From assembly GCA_021808545.1 (NCBI GenBank), contig JAKBBM010000018.1, positions 1 through 37,238 on the forward strand: 37,238 bases of DNA, written 5' to 3'. The notes under the pieces were generated by a model. That model was not told where the DNA came from. It did no database searches and was given only the letters and a program-made list of their open reading frames with translations. A program made the translations under genes and the position numbers. The stretch comes from Pseudomonadota bacterium (GTDB lineage: Bacteria; Pseudomonadota; Alphaproteobacteria; Acetobacterales; Acetobacteraceae). Numbering within the stretch: the first letter of the stretch is position 1; every line of letters begins with the position of its first letter. Positions 9,629 through 25,224 of the stretch are shown here, piece by piece.

Positions 9629-9646
9629 GCGGGTTAGCTAACCCGC
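9629..9646. repeat. Perfect 18-bp palindrome between convergent hemY and WD40 genes
   Basis: GCGGGTTAGCTAACCCGC reads the same on both strands and can fold as a 7-bp stem with an AGCT loop. It spans the last codons and stop of the WD40 gene. It lacks a following T-tract on the plus strand; on the minus strand T-rich sequence lies before rather than after it. A role as a bidirectional transcription end or mRNA 3' stabiliser is possible but unproven. Confidence 0.45.
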
Positions 9647-10645
9647 AAAATCCACCAGCCCGGCAAAGCCGGTCTCGGTGCCCAGCAGCAGATGGCTACC
9701 CGTGCCGTTCCAGGCCAGGGCGGTTACGGCGCCGCGCCCCGGGCCGCAGACCGGCAAGACCTTCTCGCGGGCAATATCGATCATCAGGACCAGCCCGGTA
9801 TCGAACCCGGCGGCCACCACCTCATGCTCCGGGTGGCAGGCTACGCGGCGCACAATGCCATCGCCCATGCCCAGCTCGGTGGGGGCCTTGCCCATCGGCC
9901 CGCCTCCAAAAAACGGCCACAGCACCACGCTCTCGGCCCCGGCCGTGGCCAGCCAGCGCCCCGAGCGGGTAAAGCCGATGGATTCCGTTTTGGCCGGATA
10001 GCCAGACATGCGCATATGTTTGCCCTCGGGCAGGGTCCAGCCATGCAGGGCGTTTTCCTGCATCGTCGTCACCAGCGCCGCACCCGCCGGATGCAGGGCG
10101 ATGCCGGTATGGCTGCCCTTCCATTCCAGCCGTCGCGCCTCGCTCGCCGAACTGGTGAACCAAAGCGACGCCCCGTTATAATGAGAGGCGGCGATGCGCT
10201 TGCCCTTGGTATCGAACACAATGCCCGAGACGGTGGAAGGGTGGACGAGCTCGCGCAGTTTTTCCCCCGCCCCGGTAAAAAGCTGCACGTTGCGCCCCAC
10301 AGCGGCGGCCAGCAGTGGCGCCTTGCCGACGAAGGCGGCGACATGCTCAACCCATTTGCCGCCGAATTTGGCGATTTCGGTGCTATCCTCGGCCGTGACG
10401 CGCAATAGCCGCCCGTCATCGCCGCCGCTCAGAAACCCGCCCAGCGGGTGGGGGGCCAAGCTTAGCACAGCCCCTTCATGCGCGGGGCGGGTGGTAAAGC
10501 CATCGCCGGTGAACAGGCGCAGCGTGCCATCGCCCAATGCAATGCAGGGTTGTGCGTTGTGCGAGGCAAAGCAGGCGGCAGTGACATAGGCGCCAAATTC
10601 AGCCGTCTGCCCGCGGGAATTCAGCAATTGGTCGAGGTCGGACAT
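9638..10645 (-). CDS. WD40-repeat beta-propeller protein
   Basis: A 335-residue soluble protein without signal peptide or membrane helix. It contains about seven degenerate WD40-type blades, recognisable from repeated patterns such as AHEGAVLSLAPHPLGGFLSGGDDGRLLRV and the later GRGAVTALAWNGTGSHLLLGTETGFAGLVDF, with the GH/WD positions partly eroded. Such propellers are usually protein-interaction scaffolds; no enzymatic residues are evident and no partner can be named. It is transcribed away from the cytochrome-porin gene, sharing a 125-nt intergenic region with it. The purine-rich AAGGAG lies only about one nucleotide before the chosen ATG, which is unusually close, so the start is not fully secure. 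Confidence 0.75.
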   Translation of the reverse strand: MSDLDQLLNSRGQTAEFGAYVTAACFASHNAQPCIALGDGTLRLFTGDGFTTRPAHEGAVLSLAPHPLGGFLSGGDDGRLLRVTAEDSTEIAKFGGKWVEHVAAFVGKAPLLAAAVGRNVQLFTGAGEKLRELVHPSTVSGIVFDTKGKRIAASHYNGASLWFTSSASEARRLEWKGSHTGIALHPAGAALVTTMQENALHGWTLPEGKHMRMSGYPAKTESIGFTRSGRWLATAGAESVVLWPFFGGGPMGKAPTELGMGDGIVRRVACHPEHEVVAAGFDTGLVLMIDIAREKVLPVCGPGRGAVTALAWNGTGSHLLLGTETGFAGLVDFAG

Positions 10646-10770: not shown

Positions 10771-12123
10771 ATGAAGAGGGATTTATTGAAAGGCGCTGCG
10801 ACCAGCGCCCTGGTGTTGGCGGGTTTGGCCGTGGGCCGGCCAGCGCACGCCATTCCCGCCTTCGCGGCGCAAACCGGGCTGCCTTGCGCCGCCTGCCATA
10901 TCGGCTTTCCGCAGCTCACCCCGTTTGGCCGCATCTTCAAAATGGAAGCCTATGTTCTGGGCACCCATGACTACCCCTCGTTGCGCAATTTTTCGGCCAT
11001 GGTGCAGGCCGGCTTTACCCATGTGAAGGACAAGGTGCCAGGCGGGCTGGCGCCGGATTTTCCGAGCAATAATGCCTGGTCGGCGCAGCAAACCAGCCTG
11101 TTTTATGGCGGTGTGCTGGATAAAAAGCTTGGTCTTGGCGCCTTTATCCAAGGCACGTACGATGGTGTGGGTCATCAATTTTCCTGGGATAATACAGATA
11201 TACGCTTTGCCCAGGGCGCGAAGCTGCTGGGTAAGCCGATGATTTACGGCTTTACTTTCAATAACTCCCCAGGGCTGACCGATTTATGGAACACGCTGCC
11301 AGCCTGGGGCTATCCGTTCATTCCGCCGGCCTTGGGGGTGGGCAATACCGCCTCCATTCAGATTAGCGCGCTGGCTCAGGCCGTGGCCGGGGTAGGGGGG
11401 TATGTGGCGGTGAATGCAACCCCCGCCAATCTGCTTTATGGCGAGGTGGATTTATACAAAGCATTGCCCGACCATACGGCCTATGCGCTCGGCGCTGGGC
11501 CCGAGGCCGGTGTGGCCGGCGCCATTCCCTATTGGCGCTTTGCCATCCAGCATAGTCTGGGCGAAAATTCGATTGAGTTCGGCACGTCGGGGTTGGTCGA
11601 TCACCCCTATCCCAGCGGGCTTAAACATGGTCCGACAGACGATATCACCGATCTTGGCGTGGATACGCAATTCCAGCATATCTCGGCCAATCAGGCGATT
11701 TCGTTGCAGGCCTCTTATTTCCATGAGGCGCAGCATTGGGGCGCGAGTTATCCGCTGGGCGATACCGCCAATCTGAACGATTCGCTGAATATGGAGACGG
11801 TCACGGTCTCTTATTTGTGGCACCAGCTGTTCGGCGCCACTGAATCTTTCAACAATATTGACGGTACGGCTGATTCCGGCCTGTATAACCTGGATTCGGC
11901 CAATGCCAACGGTAAGCCGAATACGCAAAGCTTCACGACAGAGTTGGATTATTACCCATTCAACCGCGGCGGGCCAAAATTCTTCCCCTGGGTGAATGCG
12001 AAATTCTTTGTCGAGAATACATTCTACACCCAGTTCAACGGGCGGGCGCATAATTATGACGGCAATGGCCGCAATGCCTCGGCCAATGACGTGCTGTTCA
12101 CCGGCATCTGGCTGGTGTTCTGA
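10771..12123 (+). CDS. Cyc2-like monoheme c-type cytochrome fused to outer-membrane beta-barrel
   Basis: A 450-residue exported protein preceded by a strong AGGAGG ribosome site (10760-10765). The signal peptide is about residues 1-27 (MKRDLLKG, hydrophobic core, then AHA). It is followed at once by a single haem-attachment motif C39-A-A-C42-H43, set in IPAFAAQTGLPCAACHIGFP and then QLTPFGRIFKMEAYVLG. This block matches what I know of Cyc2-type fused cytochrome-porins, which pass electrons across the outer membrane, for example in Fe(II) oxidation. The remaining ~390 residues are rich in alternating aromatic/polar strands and end in ...TGIWLVF, a terminal phenylalanine typical of BAM-assembled barrels. 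Related proteins also occur in organisms not known to oxidise iron, so the electron donor or acceptor is unknown. Confidence 0.7.
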   Translation: MKRDLLKGAATSALVLAGLAVGRPAHAIPAFAAQTGLPCAACHIGFPQLTPFGRIFKMEAYVLGTHDYPSLRNFSAMVQAGFTHVKDKVPGGLAPDFPSNNAWSAQQTSLFYGGVLDKKLGLGAFIQGTYDGVGHQFSWDNTDIRFAQGAKLLGKPMIYGFTFNNSPGLTDLWNTLPAWGYPFIPPALGVGNTASIQISALAQAVAGVGGYVAVNATPANLLYGEVDLYKALPDHTAYALGAGPEAGVAGAIPYWRFAIQHSLGENSIEFGTSGLVDHPYPSGLKHGPTDDITDLGVDTQFQHISANQAISLQASYFHEAQHWGASYPLGDTANLNDSLNMETVTVSYLWHQLFGATESFNNIDGTADSGLYNLDSANANGKPNTQSFTTELDYYPFNRGGPKFFPWVNAKFFVENTFYTQFNGRAHNYDGNGRNASANDVLFTGIWLVF

Positions 12124-12231: not shown

Positions 12232-13605
12232 ATGTTGGATGATCTGAAGATGGACTGGCCGGCGCTGGATGCGGCGCATCACCTGCATCCATTCACCGAC
12301 CATAAAAGCCTGCATAAAGCGGGTGTGCGCGTTATCAGATCGGCTCAGGGTGTTTATTTATATGACAATAAGGGCAATCGCCTGCTGGATGGCATGGCCG
12401 GGCTGTGGTGCGTGGCGGCGGGCTATGGCAGGGCGGAGTTGGTTGAAGCCGCCGCCGCGCAAATGGCAAAATTACCCTATTACAATACGTTTTTTAAAAC
12501 CACGAATGAACCAGCGGTAAAGCTTGCCGCGCGTTTGGCGCATATCGCGCCGCGCGGACTCTCGCATGTGTTTTTTGCGTGTTCCGGTTCCGAGGCGGTG
12601 GATACCGCCATCCGCACCGCGCGCGTGTACTGGCAGACGCGCGGAAAGCCGGCCAAGCGCATCATCATCGGCCGGGAATATGGCTATCATGGCTCGACCA
12701 TGTTGGCGGCCGCCGCCGGCGGCATGGTGGATATGCACCGCCAGGCGGGCGATCTGCCGGACTTTGCCCATGTGTTGCCGCCTTATTGGTACGAAAAAGG
12801 CGGACAGATGGGCGAATCGGAATTCGGCCTTTATGCCGCGCGGCAGTTGGAAGCCAAAATTCTTGAATTGGGGGCGGAAAATATCGCCGCCTTTATCGGC
12901 GAGCCGGTTCAGGGGGCGGGCGGCGTGATCATTCCGCCATCAACCTATTGGCCGGAGGTTAACCGTATTTGCAAGGCGCATGATATTCTGCTGATCGCCG
13001 ATGAGGTGATTTGCGGGTTTGGGCGCACGGGGCGGATGTTTGGCTCTGACTATTTCGGCATTGAGCCCGATATCATGACCATGGCCAAGGCGATGACCTC
13101 GGGCTATGTGCCGCTCTCGGCAGTGATGCTGCATGACCGTGTCGCGGAGGTGATGATCGACGAGGCGGGGGAGTATTATCATGGCTTCACCTATTCCGGT
13201 CATCCGGTTTCCTGCGCCGTGGCGCTGAAGAATCTCGATATCATTGAATCCGAAGGGTTGGTTGCGCGCGCAGACATGATGGGCGAGATACTGCGCGGGA
13301 AGCTGAACATCGCCCTGGCGGATCATCCTATGGTGGGCGAGATTCGCGGCGTCGGGCTGATCGGCGCGATCGAGCTGACGGCGGATAAGCGCACGCGCAA
13401 GCCCTTTGCCAAAATCGGGCGCGTGGGCACGATCTGCCGCGATTTTTGTATTGAAAACGGGCTGGTCATGCGCGCGGTGCGCGATGGCATGGTATTCGCC
13501 CCGCCGCTTATTATTTCTGAATCCGAAATAGATGAAATGGTCGCATTGGCCAAAAAATCAATCGACCAGACCTATGAAATCGTGAAGTCGGAGATGGCGC
13601 TGTGA
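12232..13605 (+). CDS. spuC: Putrescine-pyruvate class III aminotransferase
   Basis: A 457-residue PLP enzyme of aminotransferase class III. Family blocks closely resemble Pseudomonas SpuC: HPFTDHKSLHKAG (19-31), LLDGMAGLWCVAAGYGRAEL (51-70), LPYYNTFF (81-88), FIGEPVQGAGGVIIPPSTYW (221-240) and GFTYSGHP. The PLP lysine is K286 in TMAKAMTSGYVPL and D257 in IADEVICGFGRTG contacts the pyridine nitrogen. It is expected to transfer an amino group from putrescine to pyruvate, giving 4-aminobutanal and alanine. The substrate call is strengthened by aguB and aguA directly downstream, which together make putrescine from agmatine. A good ribosome site (AGGAG) precedes the ATG. Other omega-amine substrates such as cadaverine or spermidine are possible. 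Confidence 0.85.
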   Translation: MLDDLKMDWPALDAAHHLHPFTDHKSLHKAGVRVIRSAQGVYLYDNKGNRLLDGMAGLWCVAAGYGRAELVEAAAAQMAKLPYYNTFFKTTNEPAVKLAARLAHIAPRGLSHVFFACSGSEAVDTAIRTARVYWQTRGKPAKRIIIGREYGYHGSTMLAAAAGGMVDMHRQAGDLPDFAHVLPPYWYEKGGQMGESEFGLYAARQLEAKILELGAENIAAFIGEPVQGAGGVIIPPSTYWPEVNRICKAHDILLIADEVICGFGRTGRMFGSDYFGIEPDIMTMAKAMTSGYVPLSAVMLHDRVAEVMIDEAGEYYHGFTYSGHPVSCAVALKNLDIIESEGLVARADMMGEILRGKLNIALADHPMVGEIRGVGLIGAIELTADKRTRKPFAKIGRVGTICRDFCIENGLVMRAVRDGMVFAPPLIISESEIDEMVALAKKSIDQTYEIVKSEMAL

Positions 13606-22018: not shown

Positions 22019-22465
22019 TTAACTAACGTCTGTTGCCATCAGGCCAAGGCGGCGGCGCAGCGCGCGGCTTTCGGGCCCGGCCACATCGGCCAGCGTGTAT
22101 TTATCCAGCACCGCCAGCAGGGCGTTGCGCGCCTCATCCAGAATGCTCTGCAGACGGCACATGCCGCCAATGGCGCAAAATTGCCCGGCCTGGCATTCCA
22201 CCAGGGCAAGGTCGGGCTCCATGGCCCGCACCACCGCGCCAAGGCTGATTTGTACCGCCGGGTTGCCTAATCGTAGCCCGCCATTGCGGCCGCGAATCGT
22301 CTCAACCAGCCCGGCCTGGCCAAGCTTGTGGACCACTTTGGTCATGTGGCTCTCGGAAATCTCATAGGCGGTGGAAATTTCCGCGATCGAGCCCAGCCGG
22401 TCTGGCGCCAGCGCCAGGAAGATGAGGGTCCGAAGACCATAATCGGTAAAACGGGTCAGGTGCAT
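22019..22465 (-). CDS. nsrR: Rrf2-family nitric-oxide-sensing repressor
   Basis: A 148-residue winged-helix Rrf2 regulator beginning MHLTRFTDYGLRTLIFLAL. The iron-sulfur ligands have the NsrR pattern C91-x5-C97-x5-C103 (VECQAGQFCAIGGMCRL), and D8 matches the extra cluster ligand known from Streptomyces NsrR. The DNA-recognition segment is SESHMTKVVHKLGQAGLVETIRGRNGG (37-63). NsrR loses its cluster on reacting with NO and derepresses genes such as hcp and hmp. It is encoded downstream of hcp and hcr with 24 nt between hcr and nsrR, so it is probably part of the same transcript and autoregulated. Operator-like sequences lie before hcp at 25303-25325 and 25243-25265. Confidence 0.9.
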   Translation of the reverse strand: MHLTRFTDYGLRTLIFLALAPDRLGSIAEISTAYEISESHMTKVVHKLGQAGLVETIRGRNGGLRLGNPAVQISLGAVVRAMEPDLALVECQAGQFCAIGGMCRLQSILDEARNALLAVLDKYTLADVAGPESRALRRRLGLMATDVS

Positions 22466-23586: not shown

Positions 23587-25224
23587 TCAGGCCGCCTGGC
23601 GGGTGAGGGCGGCGGTGATGTCATCTTGCGCGTTGGTGATGGGCTGCACGCCGAATTTCTCCACCAGCACATTCAGCAAGGCCGGGGTGAGGAAGGCGGG
23701 CAATGAAGGCCCCAGCCGCAAATTGCGCACGCCCAGGGCGAGCAGGGTCAGCAGCACGGCGGCGGCTTTTTGCTCGAACCAGGAGATCACGAGCGAGAGC
23801 GGCAGATCATTCACCCCGCACTCAAACGCCTTGGACAGGGCCAGCGCCACCTGCACGGCGGAATAGGCATCGTTGCACTGGCCCATATCCAAAAGCCGGG
23901 GCAGCCCGCCAATTTCGCCGAAATTCTCCTGGTTGAAGCGGTATTTGCCGCAGCCCAGCGTGAGCAGCATGGTGTCGTCCGGGGCTTGTTCGGCGAACTC
24001 GGTGTAATAATTGCGCCCCGGTGCCGCCCCATCGCAGCCGCCAATGAGGAAGAAATGCCGGATCGCGCCGCTCTTGACCGCGCCGATCACGGTCTCGGCG
24101 GCACTCAGCACCGTATCGCGGCCAAACCCGACCAGAATGGTCTTTTCCGGCGCGGTTTCGGCAAAGCCCGGCAGCGCCTGGGCCGCGCGCACGACCAGGG
24201 CGAGATCGGCATGGGTGAGATGGCGCACCCCCGGCCAGCCAACCGGGCCCATGGTGAAGATGCGGTTGCGATAGGCGGGTTGCGGCTCGATCAGGCAGTT
24301 CGAGGTCATGACGATTGGGCCGGGGAAGGCGGCGAATTCCTGATGCTGGTTCTGCCAGGCGGTGCCGTAATTGCCGGCCAGGTGCGGGTAGGCGTGCAGT
24401 TTGGGATAGCTATGGGCGGGCAACATCTCGCCATGGGTATAGACATTGATGCCGGTATCCTTCGTCGCTTCCAGAATGGCGGCGAGATCGCCCAGATCAT
24501 GCCCGGAGACGAGGATGGCCTTGCCCGCCACCGGCGTGGTGCGCACCTGGGTGGGGGTGGGGCTGCCAAAGCGCCCGGTATTGGCGGCATCCAGCGTTTC
24601 CATCACGGTGAAATTCAGCTGTCCCAGCGCCAGAGCCTCCGCCAGCAGGGTGTCGGCATCCACCGGGTCGGTCGCCAGGAAATCCAGCGCATGGGCAATG
24701 CCGGCACCGATTTCGGGCCGCACCTCGCCCAGCACCTCAGCATGGTGGGCATAGGCGGCAACGCCCTTCAGCCCGTAGAGAACCAGCGCGCGCAGGCCGA
24801 TCACATCCTCGCCCACAATATTCAGCCCCGCCCGCACCGAGGCAATGTCGGCCTGGGCCAGCAGGCCGGCCAGATTGTCGGCGGGCTGGAAGGCGGCGGG
24901 GCCGGCCAATGTTTCGCCCAGCGTGCCACGTAGACGGTCGCGGATGCGCGCGGCCTCGGCGATCAACTCCACGAACCGGACGCGGTTGAAATTCACGTTG
25001 GTGAGGGTGGTGAACAGCCCATACAGGATGAAACTATCCGCCGCCGCGTCGGGCCGGCCTTGCTGGTGCAGCCGGTGCGCGTACTGGCCCAGCCCCTTGA
25101 GCTGATAGATCAGCACATCCTGCAGGTCGGCGGTGGCTTCATCCTTGCCGCACACGCCGCGCGCGCTGGCGCAGCCGGCACCTGTTTCGGTACGGGCGGT
25201 TTGTTCACATTGGAAGCAAAACAT
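23587..25224 (-). CDS. hcp: Hybrid-cluster protein (hydroxylamine reductase / NO reductase)
   Basis: A 545-residue hybrid-cluster protein. The N-terminal cluster cysteines C3-x2-C6-x11-C18-x6-C25 follow the enterobacterial pattern ([2Fe-2S] class) rather than the strict-anaerobe pattern. Hybrid-cluster ligands are all visible: H242 (GHD), E266 (HGEML), C310 (TSNC), the persulfide C397 (GGCDG), C425 (LGCGKYR), C450 (MGQCND), E484 and K486 (WFEQK). The enzyme reduces hydroxylamine in vitro; in E. coli it is a high-affinity NO reductase and protein S-nitrosylase under anaerobiosis. It heads the hcp-hcr-nsrR operon behind a promoter with FNR and NsrR sites. An AAGGA ribosome site lies about 10 nt before the ATG. 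Confidence 0.97.

Follow-up and report, generated by a model that had tools for sequence, protein, structure and literature searches.

What does a Cyc2-like fused cytochrome-porin do in an alphaproteobacterium of heterotrophic appearance, and with what would it exchange electrons: iron, another metal, or some other extracellular donor or acceptor? The question arises from a gene in the 37,238-nucleotide stretch of DNA analyzed here (hereafter, the window), which is contig 8 of a 2.44 Mb assembly comprising 129 contigs. The assembly is 93% complete, so that absences in the host genome are provisional. The host genome groups with Acidocella, and the gene (Table 1) is the only copy found in it.

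The 450-aa protein contains a single CXXCH motif that is located near the N-terminus, behind a stretch that by eye resembles a signal peptide. The original prediction recognized this motif correctly but numbered it C39-C43, where C39-H43 is the correct designation. Four residues past the CXXCH, there is a PXL motif (CH-IGF-PQL); the CXXCH...PQLTPFGR.FK context and the terminal Phe that had been adduced in favor of a Cyc2 relationship are both present in the ORF, and the length is above the Cyc2 minimum of 365 aa. Scans of the protein against the Pfam, NCBIfam and PHROGs profiles yielded no family matches, and a PDB sequence search retrieved only chance matches to an endonuclease; because none of these searches returned anything related, the gene is missed when these curated profiles alone are used.

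Table 1. Features of the cyc2-like locus (coordinates are those of the window).
Feature	Position	Strand	Basis
Upstream neighbor, WD40-repeat protein (context, outside the putative conduit)	9638..10645	-	Pfam
Cyc2-like fused cytochrome-porin gene	10771..12123	+	450-aa ORF, ATG start
Putative signal peptide, residues 1-27, ends AHA (AHA/IP)	10771..10851	+	By eye; AF2 helix 2-20
Predicted mono-haem segment, residues 28-58	10852..10944	+	AF2 helices 29-35, 39-42, 51-58
Codon of Ala33 (Arg in the published Cyc2 motif)	10867..10869	+	Alignment and motif as given in PMC8406198
CXXCH haem-binding motif, residues 39-43 (C39-A-A-C42-H43)	10885..10899	+	Sequence; C39, C42, H43 invariant
Predicted beta-barrel, 16 strands, residues 74-449	10990..12117	+	DSSP on AF2 model; Foldseek
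Downstream neighbor, class III aminotransferase (context)	12232..13605	+	Pfam, NCBIfam

The AlphaFold2 model, for which the input was an alignment of 81 sequences, has a mean pLDDT of 90.9 and a pTM of 0.86. As delineated with DSSP, it consists of 16 strands preceded by an N-terminal helical haem segment, in agreement with the barrel that had been predicted to follow this segment. The haem segment itself is modeled with less certainty (average pLDDT of 41 for residues 21-30, 65 for residues 31-40 and 83 for residues 41-50, with residues 21-31 of low confidence). This segment is strongly conserved: P29, Q34, T35, C39, C42, H43, L49, G53, F56 and K57 are invariant among the 81 sequences. H43 is the only invariant His, there is no invariant Met, and M77 is conserved in at least 90% of the sequences; the invariant K57 and the nearly invariant M77 are candidates for the second haem ligand. 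The model contains no haem; if attached at the CXXCH, a c-type haem would be carried by this short N-terminal stretch, which would close the barrel at its periplasmic mouth.

Among the best 50 rows, the Foldseek matches include the 16-strand porins OmpT, Omp32, OmpF, OprP and OprO, with moderate scores (OprP, 2o4v, rank 22, TMq 0.45; OprO, 4rjw, rank 25, TMq 0.47). The phosphate porins OprP and OprO share the 16-strand fold at 10-11% identity but have no haem motif. The MtrCAB, MtoAB and PioAB systems likewise combine an outer-membrane barrel with c-type haem for extracellular electron transfer; however, as described in PMC8406198, they employ a 26-strand barrel and a separate decahaem cytochrome, whereas in the present case, 16 strands and one CXXCH are combined in one chain. 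By architecture, as judged from the sequence and the model, the protein is a Cyc2-type fused cytochrome-porin, presumably, one that resides in the outer membrane.

The closest known systems are the Acidithiobacillus Cyc2, Mariprofundus Cyc2PV-1 and Leptospirillum Cyt572. With these proteins, as far as they are described in the available text of PMC8406198, the window protein shares the signal-peptide-like start, the single CXXCH, the PXL motif, the length of more than 365 aa, the OprP/OprO-like 16-strand porin and the strong conservation of the haem segment. The same source gives the motif AXPXFAR[Q/K][T/Y], five residues upstream of CXXCH, as unique to Cyc2. The corresponding sequence in the window protein is AIPAFAAQT, with Ala33 replacing the Arg. 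A further difference is that the window gene is not part of a cyc1/rus/cox operon. Thus, the assignment to the Cyc2 class holds with respect to the architecture, length, single CXXCH and PXL, but the diagnostic FAR is FAA here.

This replacement is not a peculiarity of a single genome. We constructed a quick tree of 108 rows (105 different), with the motif column removed and the root placed at the midpoint. The window gene groups with L002-L005 and L036 (Acidocella aquatica), the homolog in the latter being 71% identical, inside a clade of 26 rows (SH-aLRT 100) that consists of Acidocella, Acidiphilium and related records. Arg occupies the motif position in 62 of the 108 rows but in none of the 26 (23 different) rows of this clade, which have Ala in 24 cases, Gly in one and Glu in one. 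The clade is nested in a part of the tree where the other 54 rows all carry Arg. In the remaining part (28 rows), the spacing from CXXCH to PXL is longer by two residues, and the motif position is variable, with Arg in 8 rows; in seven Acetobacteraceae loci of this group with the two-residue insertion (L014-L027 and others), the cytochrome gene is located upstream rather than downstream. The reference set of PMC8406198, as described there, was built by dropping the sequences without PXFAR[Q/K][T/Y]; because this motif is required, the Arg-less clade would drop out of the published screen. In other words, the clade fails one defining feature of the strict published motif while being, by sequence and model, Cyc2-like in the other features tested.

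Cyc2 homologs in Acidocella have been reported previously, namely, in Acidocella MX-AZ03 and an Acidocella metagenome-assembled genome (PMC10715153) and in MAG 20 (PMC8357290), with a genus-level mention in PMC10654088; in their available text, PMC10654088 and PMC10715153 tie the Acidocella homologs to the Cyc2 of At. ferrooxidans. The published genes often adjoin a gene for a mono- or di-haem cytochrome (PMC10715153, PMC8357290). We found no mention of the missing Arg in the article text searched, mostly open access, and the available text of PMC10715153 and PMC8357290 mentions neither this replacement nor a relocated partner. Accordingly, the host protein belongs to a type already described, as a variant without the signature Arg.

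Homologs were detected in 27 of the 200 genomes in the search of the order and in 22 of the 31 genomes in the search of the genus, the host genome being included in both counts; two of these 22 hold only fragments. Nine pairwise comparisons involving the window gene gave dN/dS values between 0.08 and 0.19, which are rough given the high dS (0.9-2.3). As judged from these sequence comparisons, the gene is subject to purifying selection and is not a chance ORF.

Pieces or partial copies of the gene were also observed, in L031 (pACRY03), in the A. multivorum plasmid NC_015179.1, and in L028 (G193) and L029 (G149), the latter two genomes each holding a full-length copy besides the partial one. An Acidocella genome, G210, contains a 139-aa mini-ORF in which the haem segment and the final strand remain, whereas most of the barrel is gone (L171:5429-5845, minus strand). 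These shortened copies could be taken to mean that the gene is a relic that lost its partner in the window's clade and is now disappearing, and the lack of an adjoining partner gene in all 6 loci of that clade is compatible with such decay. The low dN/dS, the intact frame and the fixed place between the WD40 and aminotransferase genes make this very improbable.

The WD40, cyc2-like and aminotransferase genes appear in the same order in five other loci (tblastn); judging by start sequences, the arrangement in G209 looks alike, and G208 has the downstream side in common. Past the aminotransferase, the window encodes an N-carbamoylputrescine amidase and an agmatine deiminase (Pfam, NCBIfam). We considered the hemC-hemD-hemY cluster upstream of the WD40 gene as a haem-linked context and rejected it because another gene occupies this place in G087 and G209. 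Scans for promoters and terminators yielded no informative signal. Elsewhere in the window, a gene for an Rrf2-type regulator (22019-22465, minus strand) lies near that for a hydroxylamine reductase (hybrid cluster protein; 23587-25224, minus strand), possibly, a nitric oxide response pair.

Thus, the original prediction was accurate in that the cyc2-like gene lies beside unrelated genes in the window, but this does not extend to the sister clades. In the sister Acidocella and Acidiphilium clades, a gene for a mono-haem cytochrome c follows the cyc2-like gene, starting between -35 and +51 bases from it, at 13 of 14 loci. Of 79 more distant relatives, 27 have a cytochrome c gene no more than 300 bases downstream, compared with 8 of 524 ORFs in the background. 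Under a stricter rule applied to both sides, such a gene is present at 47 of 95 loci versus 1 of 383 in the background; this count takes the first start codon and so misses L006, L007 and L039 that were found by the first count. The partner is not uniform: it is mono-haem in the sister clades, whereas in the other relatives that carry the motif Arg, di-haem cytochromes account for 12 of the 23 downstream partners. Five of the nine plasmid records with a match were examined. Four of them carry an annotated c-type cytochrome immediately downstream, and in the fifth, it is located one gene away on the upstream side. One matching plasmid labeled Acidithiobacillus ferrooxidans (CP084173.1) gives match statistics identical to those of Acidiphilium cryptum pACRY03 (NC_009469.1), which might reflect a mixed culture, a mislabel or a transfer.

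In three genomes (G110, G157 and G202; loci L163, L164 and L166), the pair of cyc2-like and cytochrome c genes directly precedes ccmC, ccmE, ccmF and ccmG-like genes; in G110, ccmH is also located downstream, and ccmB, oppositely oriented, flanks the pair on its other side. The ccm genes were identified with Pfam in G110 and G157 and by alike start sequences in G202. In L163 and L166, a gene for a tri-haem cytochrome precedes the cyc2-like gene. In the host genome, a related cytochrome is encoded on a different contig (L158:6266-6664). Among the 53 cytochromes compared, its best match is an unlinked homolog from G087 (61%), followed by cytochromes that adjoin the cyc2-like gene in loci of the Acidiphilium type (about 50-56%). 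This cytochrome might act in trans as the partner of the window protein.

The position of the cyc2-like gene in the window, as an orphan with no respiratory genes directly beside it, also allows a reading under which the protein is a redox-active porin with another task, that is, protection of the periplasm against Fe(II) or copper, or exchange with humics or a soluble shuttle. The broad spread of the family, with titles from many phyla among the 80 loci that were retained in the search of named genomes, is in line with such a role, as is the location of one of the host's rusticyanin-like genes beside a likely copper ATPase (see below). In contrast, the cytochrome c neighborhood in the relatives points to respiratory-chain electron transfer, and we consider this other task improbable.

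Several candidate electron carriers are encoded elsewhere in the genome. Two of them are rusticyanin-like proteins, one on contig C128 and one on C10; their genes are at L182:8030-8752 and L181:1085-1867, both on the minus strand. With the rusticyanin model, they score 95.2 and 94.3 bits in the genome-wide search and 91.5 and 93.0 bits in the NCBIfam comparison, below the equivalog cut-off of 146.7. The best other genome among 398 Pseudomonadota genomes scores 36.7 bits; with none over the cut-off in the 398, rusticyanin gave no lead to Cyc2 loci of the At. ferrooxidans type. The C128 protein aligns to rusticyanin structures, 2cak among them, at an E value of 2e-15. The copper ligands, as listed for rusticyanin in PMC10654088 (His, Cys, His, Met), are present at rusticyanin spacing, in the alignment with 2cak for the C128 protein and in the sequence of the C10 protein. 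By eye, one of the two genes is located between transporter and Hsp20-like genes, and the C10 gene adjoins that for a likely copper P-type ATPase. Over the 150 residues compared, the C10 copy is identical to that of G217. Such high-potential copper proteins would fit iron as the substrate at low pH, given the potentials in PMC9592645.

Nine of the 38 Acidocella genomes gave rusticyanin-like matches; elsewhere in the order, a match of 86 bits was found in one other genus (G019). Order-wide, the genomes with more than 80 bits (G000, G087, G190 and G019, three of the four being Acidocella) all have a cyc2-like gene. Within Acidocella, a co-occurrence of the two genes is not convincing: 7 of 9 genomes with rusticyanin-like matches carry the cyc2-like gene (one as a fragment), compared with 22 of 31 overall. 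In the article text searched, mostly open access, we saw no report of a rusticyanin-like protein from Acidocella; specifically, the available text of PMC8790237, PMC10654088, PMC5301019, PMC4448039, PMC10050440 and PMC9592645 names no such protein, and the word rusticyanin does not occur in PMC10715153.

Further potential components of the chain include a protein similar to high-potential iron-sulfur proteins (HiPIP) that is over the Pfam cut-off and Iro-like, although under the NCBIfam cut-off. Matches to the COX1 family were found on C67 and C99, where two partial pieces lie at the ends of the contigs, and on C128, as a longer second gene that we take as bo3-type. RuBisCO gave no match in the host genome and was over the cut-off in 3 of the 38 genomes of the genus.

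The direction of electron flow depends, to a large extent, on the bc1 complex. We found one bc1 operon in the host genome, and it appears to be deranged. The Rieske subunit contains NTGTAC and SPCDGS where CTHLGC and CPCHGS are expected, so that residues we take to be the cluster ligands are gone from both motifs; in the alignment of cytochrome b, one His of helix B is replaced and the second His of helix D is not conserved, these being, presumably, ligands of one haem. In all 8 Acidocella Rieske proteins compared, the first Cys/His pair and the second His are missing, although four keep the second Cys. For the Rieske subunit, no match was found in the Acidiphilium-type genomes G068, G149 and G193. 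In contrast, 11 carriers of cyc2-like genes from other genera keep CTHLGC/CPCHGS. G169 (L227), a carrier of the Acidiphilium type, keeps all four Rieske ligands (CPHRGC/CPCHGA). Hence the derangement, which we considered as a rule for all carriers (30 loci), is a lineage trait only, G169 and the 11 others being intact.

Because the only bc1 complex found lacks the Rieske cluster ligands, the host would have few routes for the reduction of cytochrome c, the conduit being among them; and because quinol has no evident route to the periplasmic cytochromes in this case, inward flow is favored in the host lineage. A similar conclusion has been reached before: PMC10715153 reports a deranged Acidocella bc1 and proposes that iron oxidation via Cyc2 bypasses it.

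The same observations bear on the opposite direction of flow, in which the protein would receive electrons from periplasmic cytochromes and serve as the terminal Fe(III) reductase, or a Cr(VI) outlet, in Acidocella and Acidiphilium. The physiology of these bacteria is compatible with this possibility. Fe(III) reduction by Acidiphilium and Acidocella has been reported, with no conclusive iron reductase named in the available text of PMC7142476 and PMC4571130; Acidocella aromatica reduces Cr(VI) (PMC5301019); and, according to PMC8790237, the Cyc2 of At. ferrooxidans has been proposed to act as its terminal ferric reductase. The loss of a conserved positive residue could, moreover, lower the potential of the haem. 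However, with the Rieske ligands and the ligands of one cytochrome b haem missing in the host, and no match to the Rieske subunit in G068, G149 and G193, there is no evident route from quinol to cytochrome c. This objection is weakened by the retention of the Rieske ligands in G169, and the search covered bc1 as the quinol-cytochrome c route. Taken together, these lines of evidence render outward flow possible but rather unlikely. An extension of the same idea is that the Arg-less branch represents a retuned Cyc2 that serves acidophilic heterotrophs as a reversible or outward ferric reductase, the Arg loss having shifted the haem potential, and that in the host lineage, it is wired to the rusticyanin-like proteins, which replace the adjacent cytochrome c; we regard this composite scenario as doubtful.

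On balance, we consider it probable that the window gene encodes a Cyc2-type conduit in the outer membrane that passes electrons from Fe(II) inward, via carriers encoded by unlinked genes, to an oxidase, supplementing heterotrophic growth. A small metal ion that donates one electron, Fe(II) or another, would enter the pore from the outside and reduce the single haem in the periplasmic mouth of the porin. From there, the electrons would pass to the periplasmic carriers, potentially, a class-I cytochrome of the c550 type, the rusticyanin-like proteins and the Iro-like HiPIP, and then to cytochrome oxidase. The electrons from iron would supplement heterotrophic growth rather than sustain autotrophy. 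This scheme draws support from the barrel with its haem segment, the CXXCH motif and length, and purifying selection; from the cytochrome c and ccm neighbors in the relatives and the cytochrome available in trans; and from the pair of rusticyanin-like genes, the HiPIP, the COX1 genes and the deranged bc1.

Several observations weaken the case for the inward conduit. The Acidocella/Acidiphilium clade as a whole lacks the motif Arg, and none of the loci of the window's own clade has an adjoining partner gene. PMC10715153 and PMC8790237 describe Acidocella as reducing Fe(III), although a sentence in the review PMC9592645 lists Acidocella and Acidiphilium after 'iron(II)-oxidizing'. Within Acidocella, the distribution of the rusticyanin-like genes does not follow that of the cyc2-like gene, and the copper ATPase beside the C10 gene could mean that the latter is involved in copper handling. 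Finally, the dead bc1 is not clade-wide, as seen in G169 and the 11 other carriers, and RuBisCO was not found in the host.

Cyc2 genes serve to infer Fe(II) oxidation from genomes, and surveys that use FAR as a filter would miss Acidocella and Acidiphilium, which are possibly iron-active. If functional, the Arg-less conduit would provide a concrete gene for two traits of these bacteria: the reduction of Fe(III) by acidophilic heterotrophs and the supply of electrons to cytochrome c in lineages with a dead bc1 complex.
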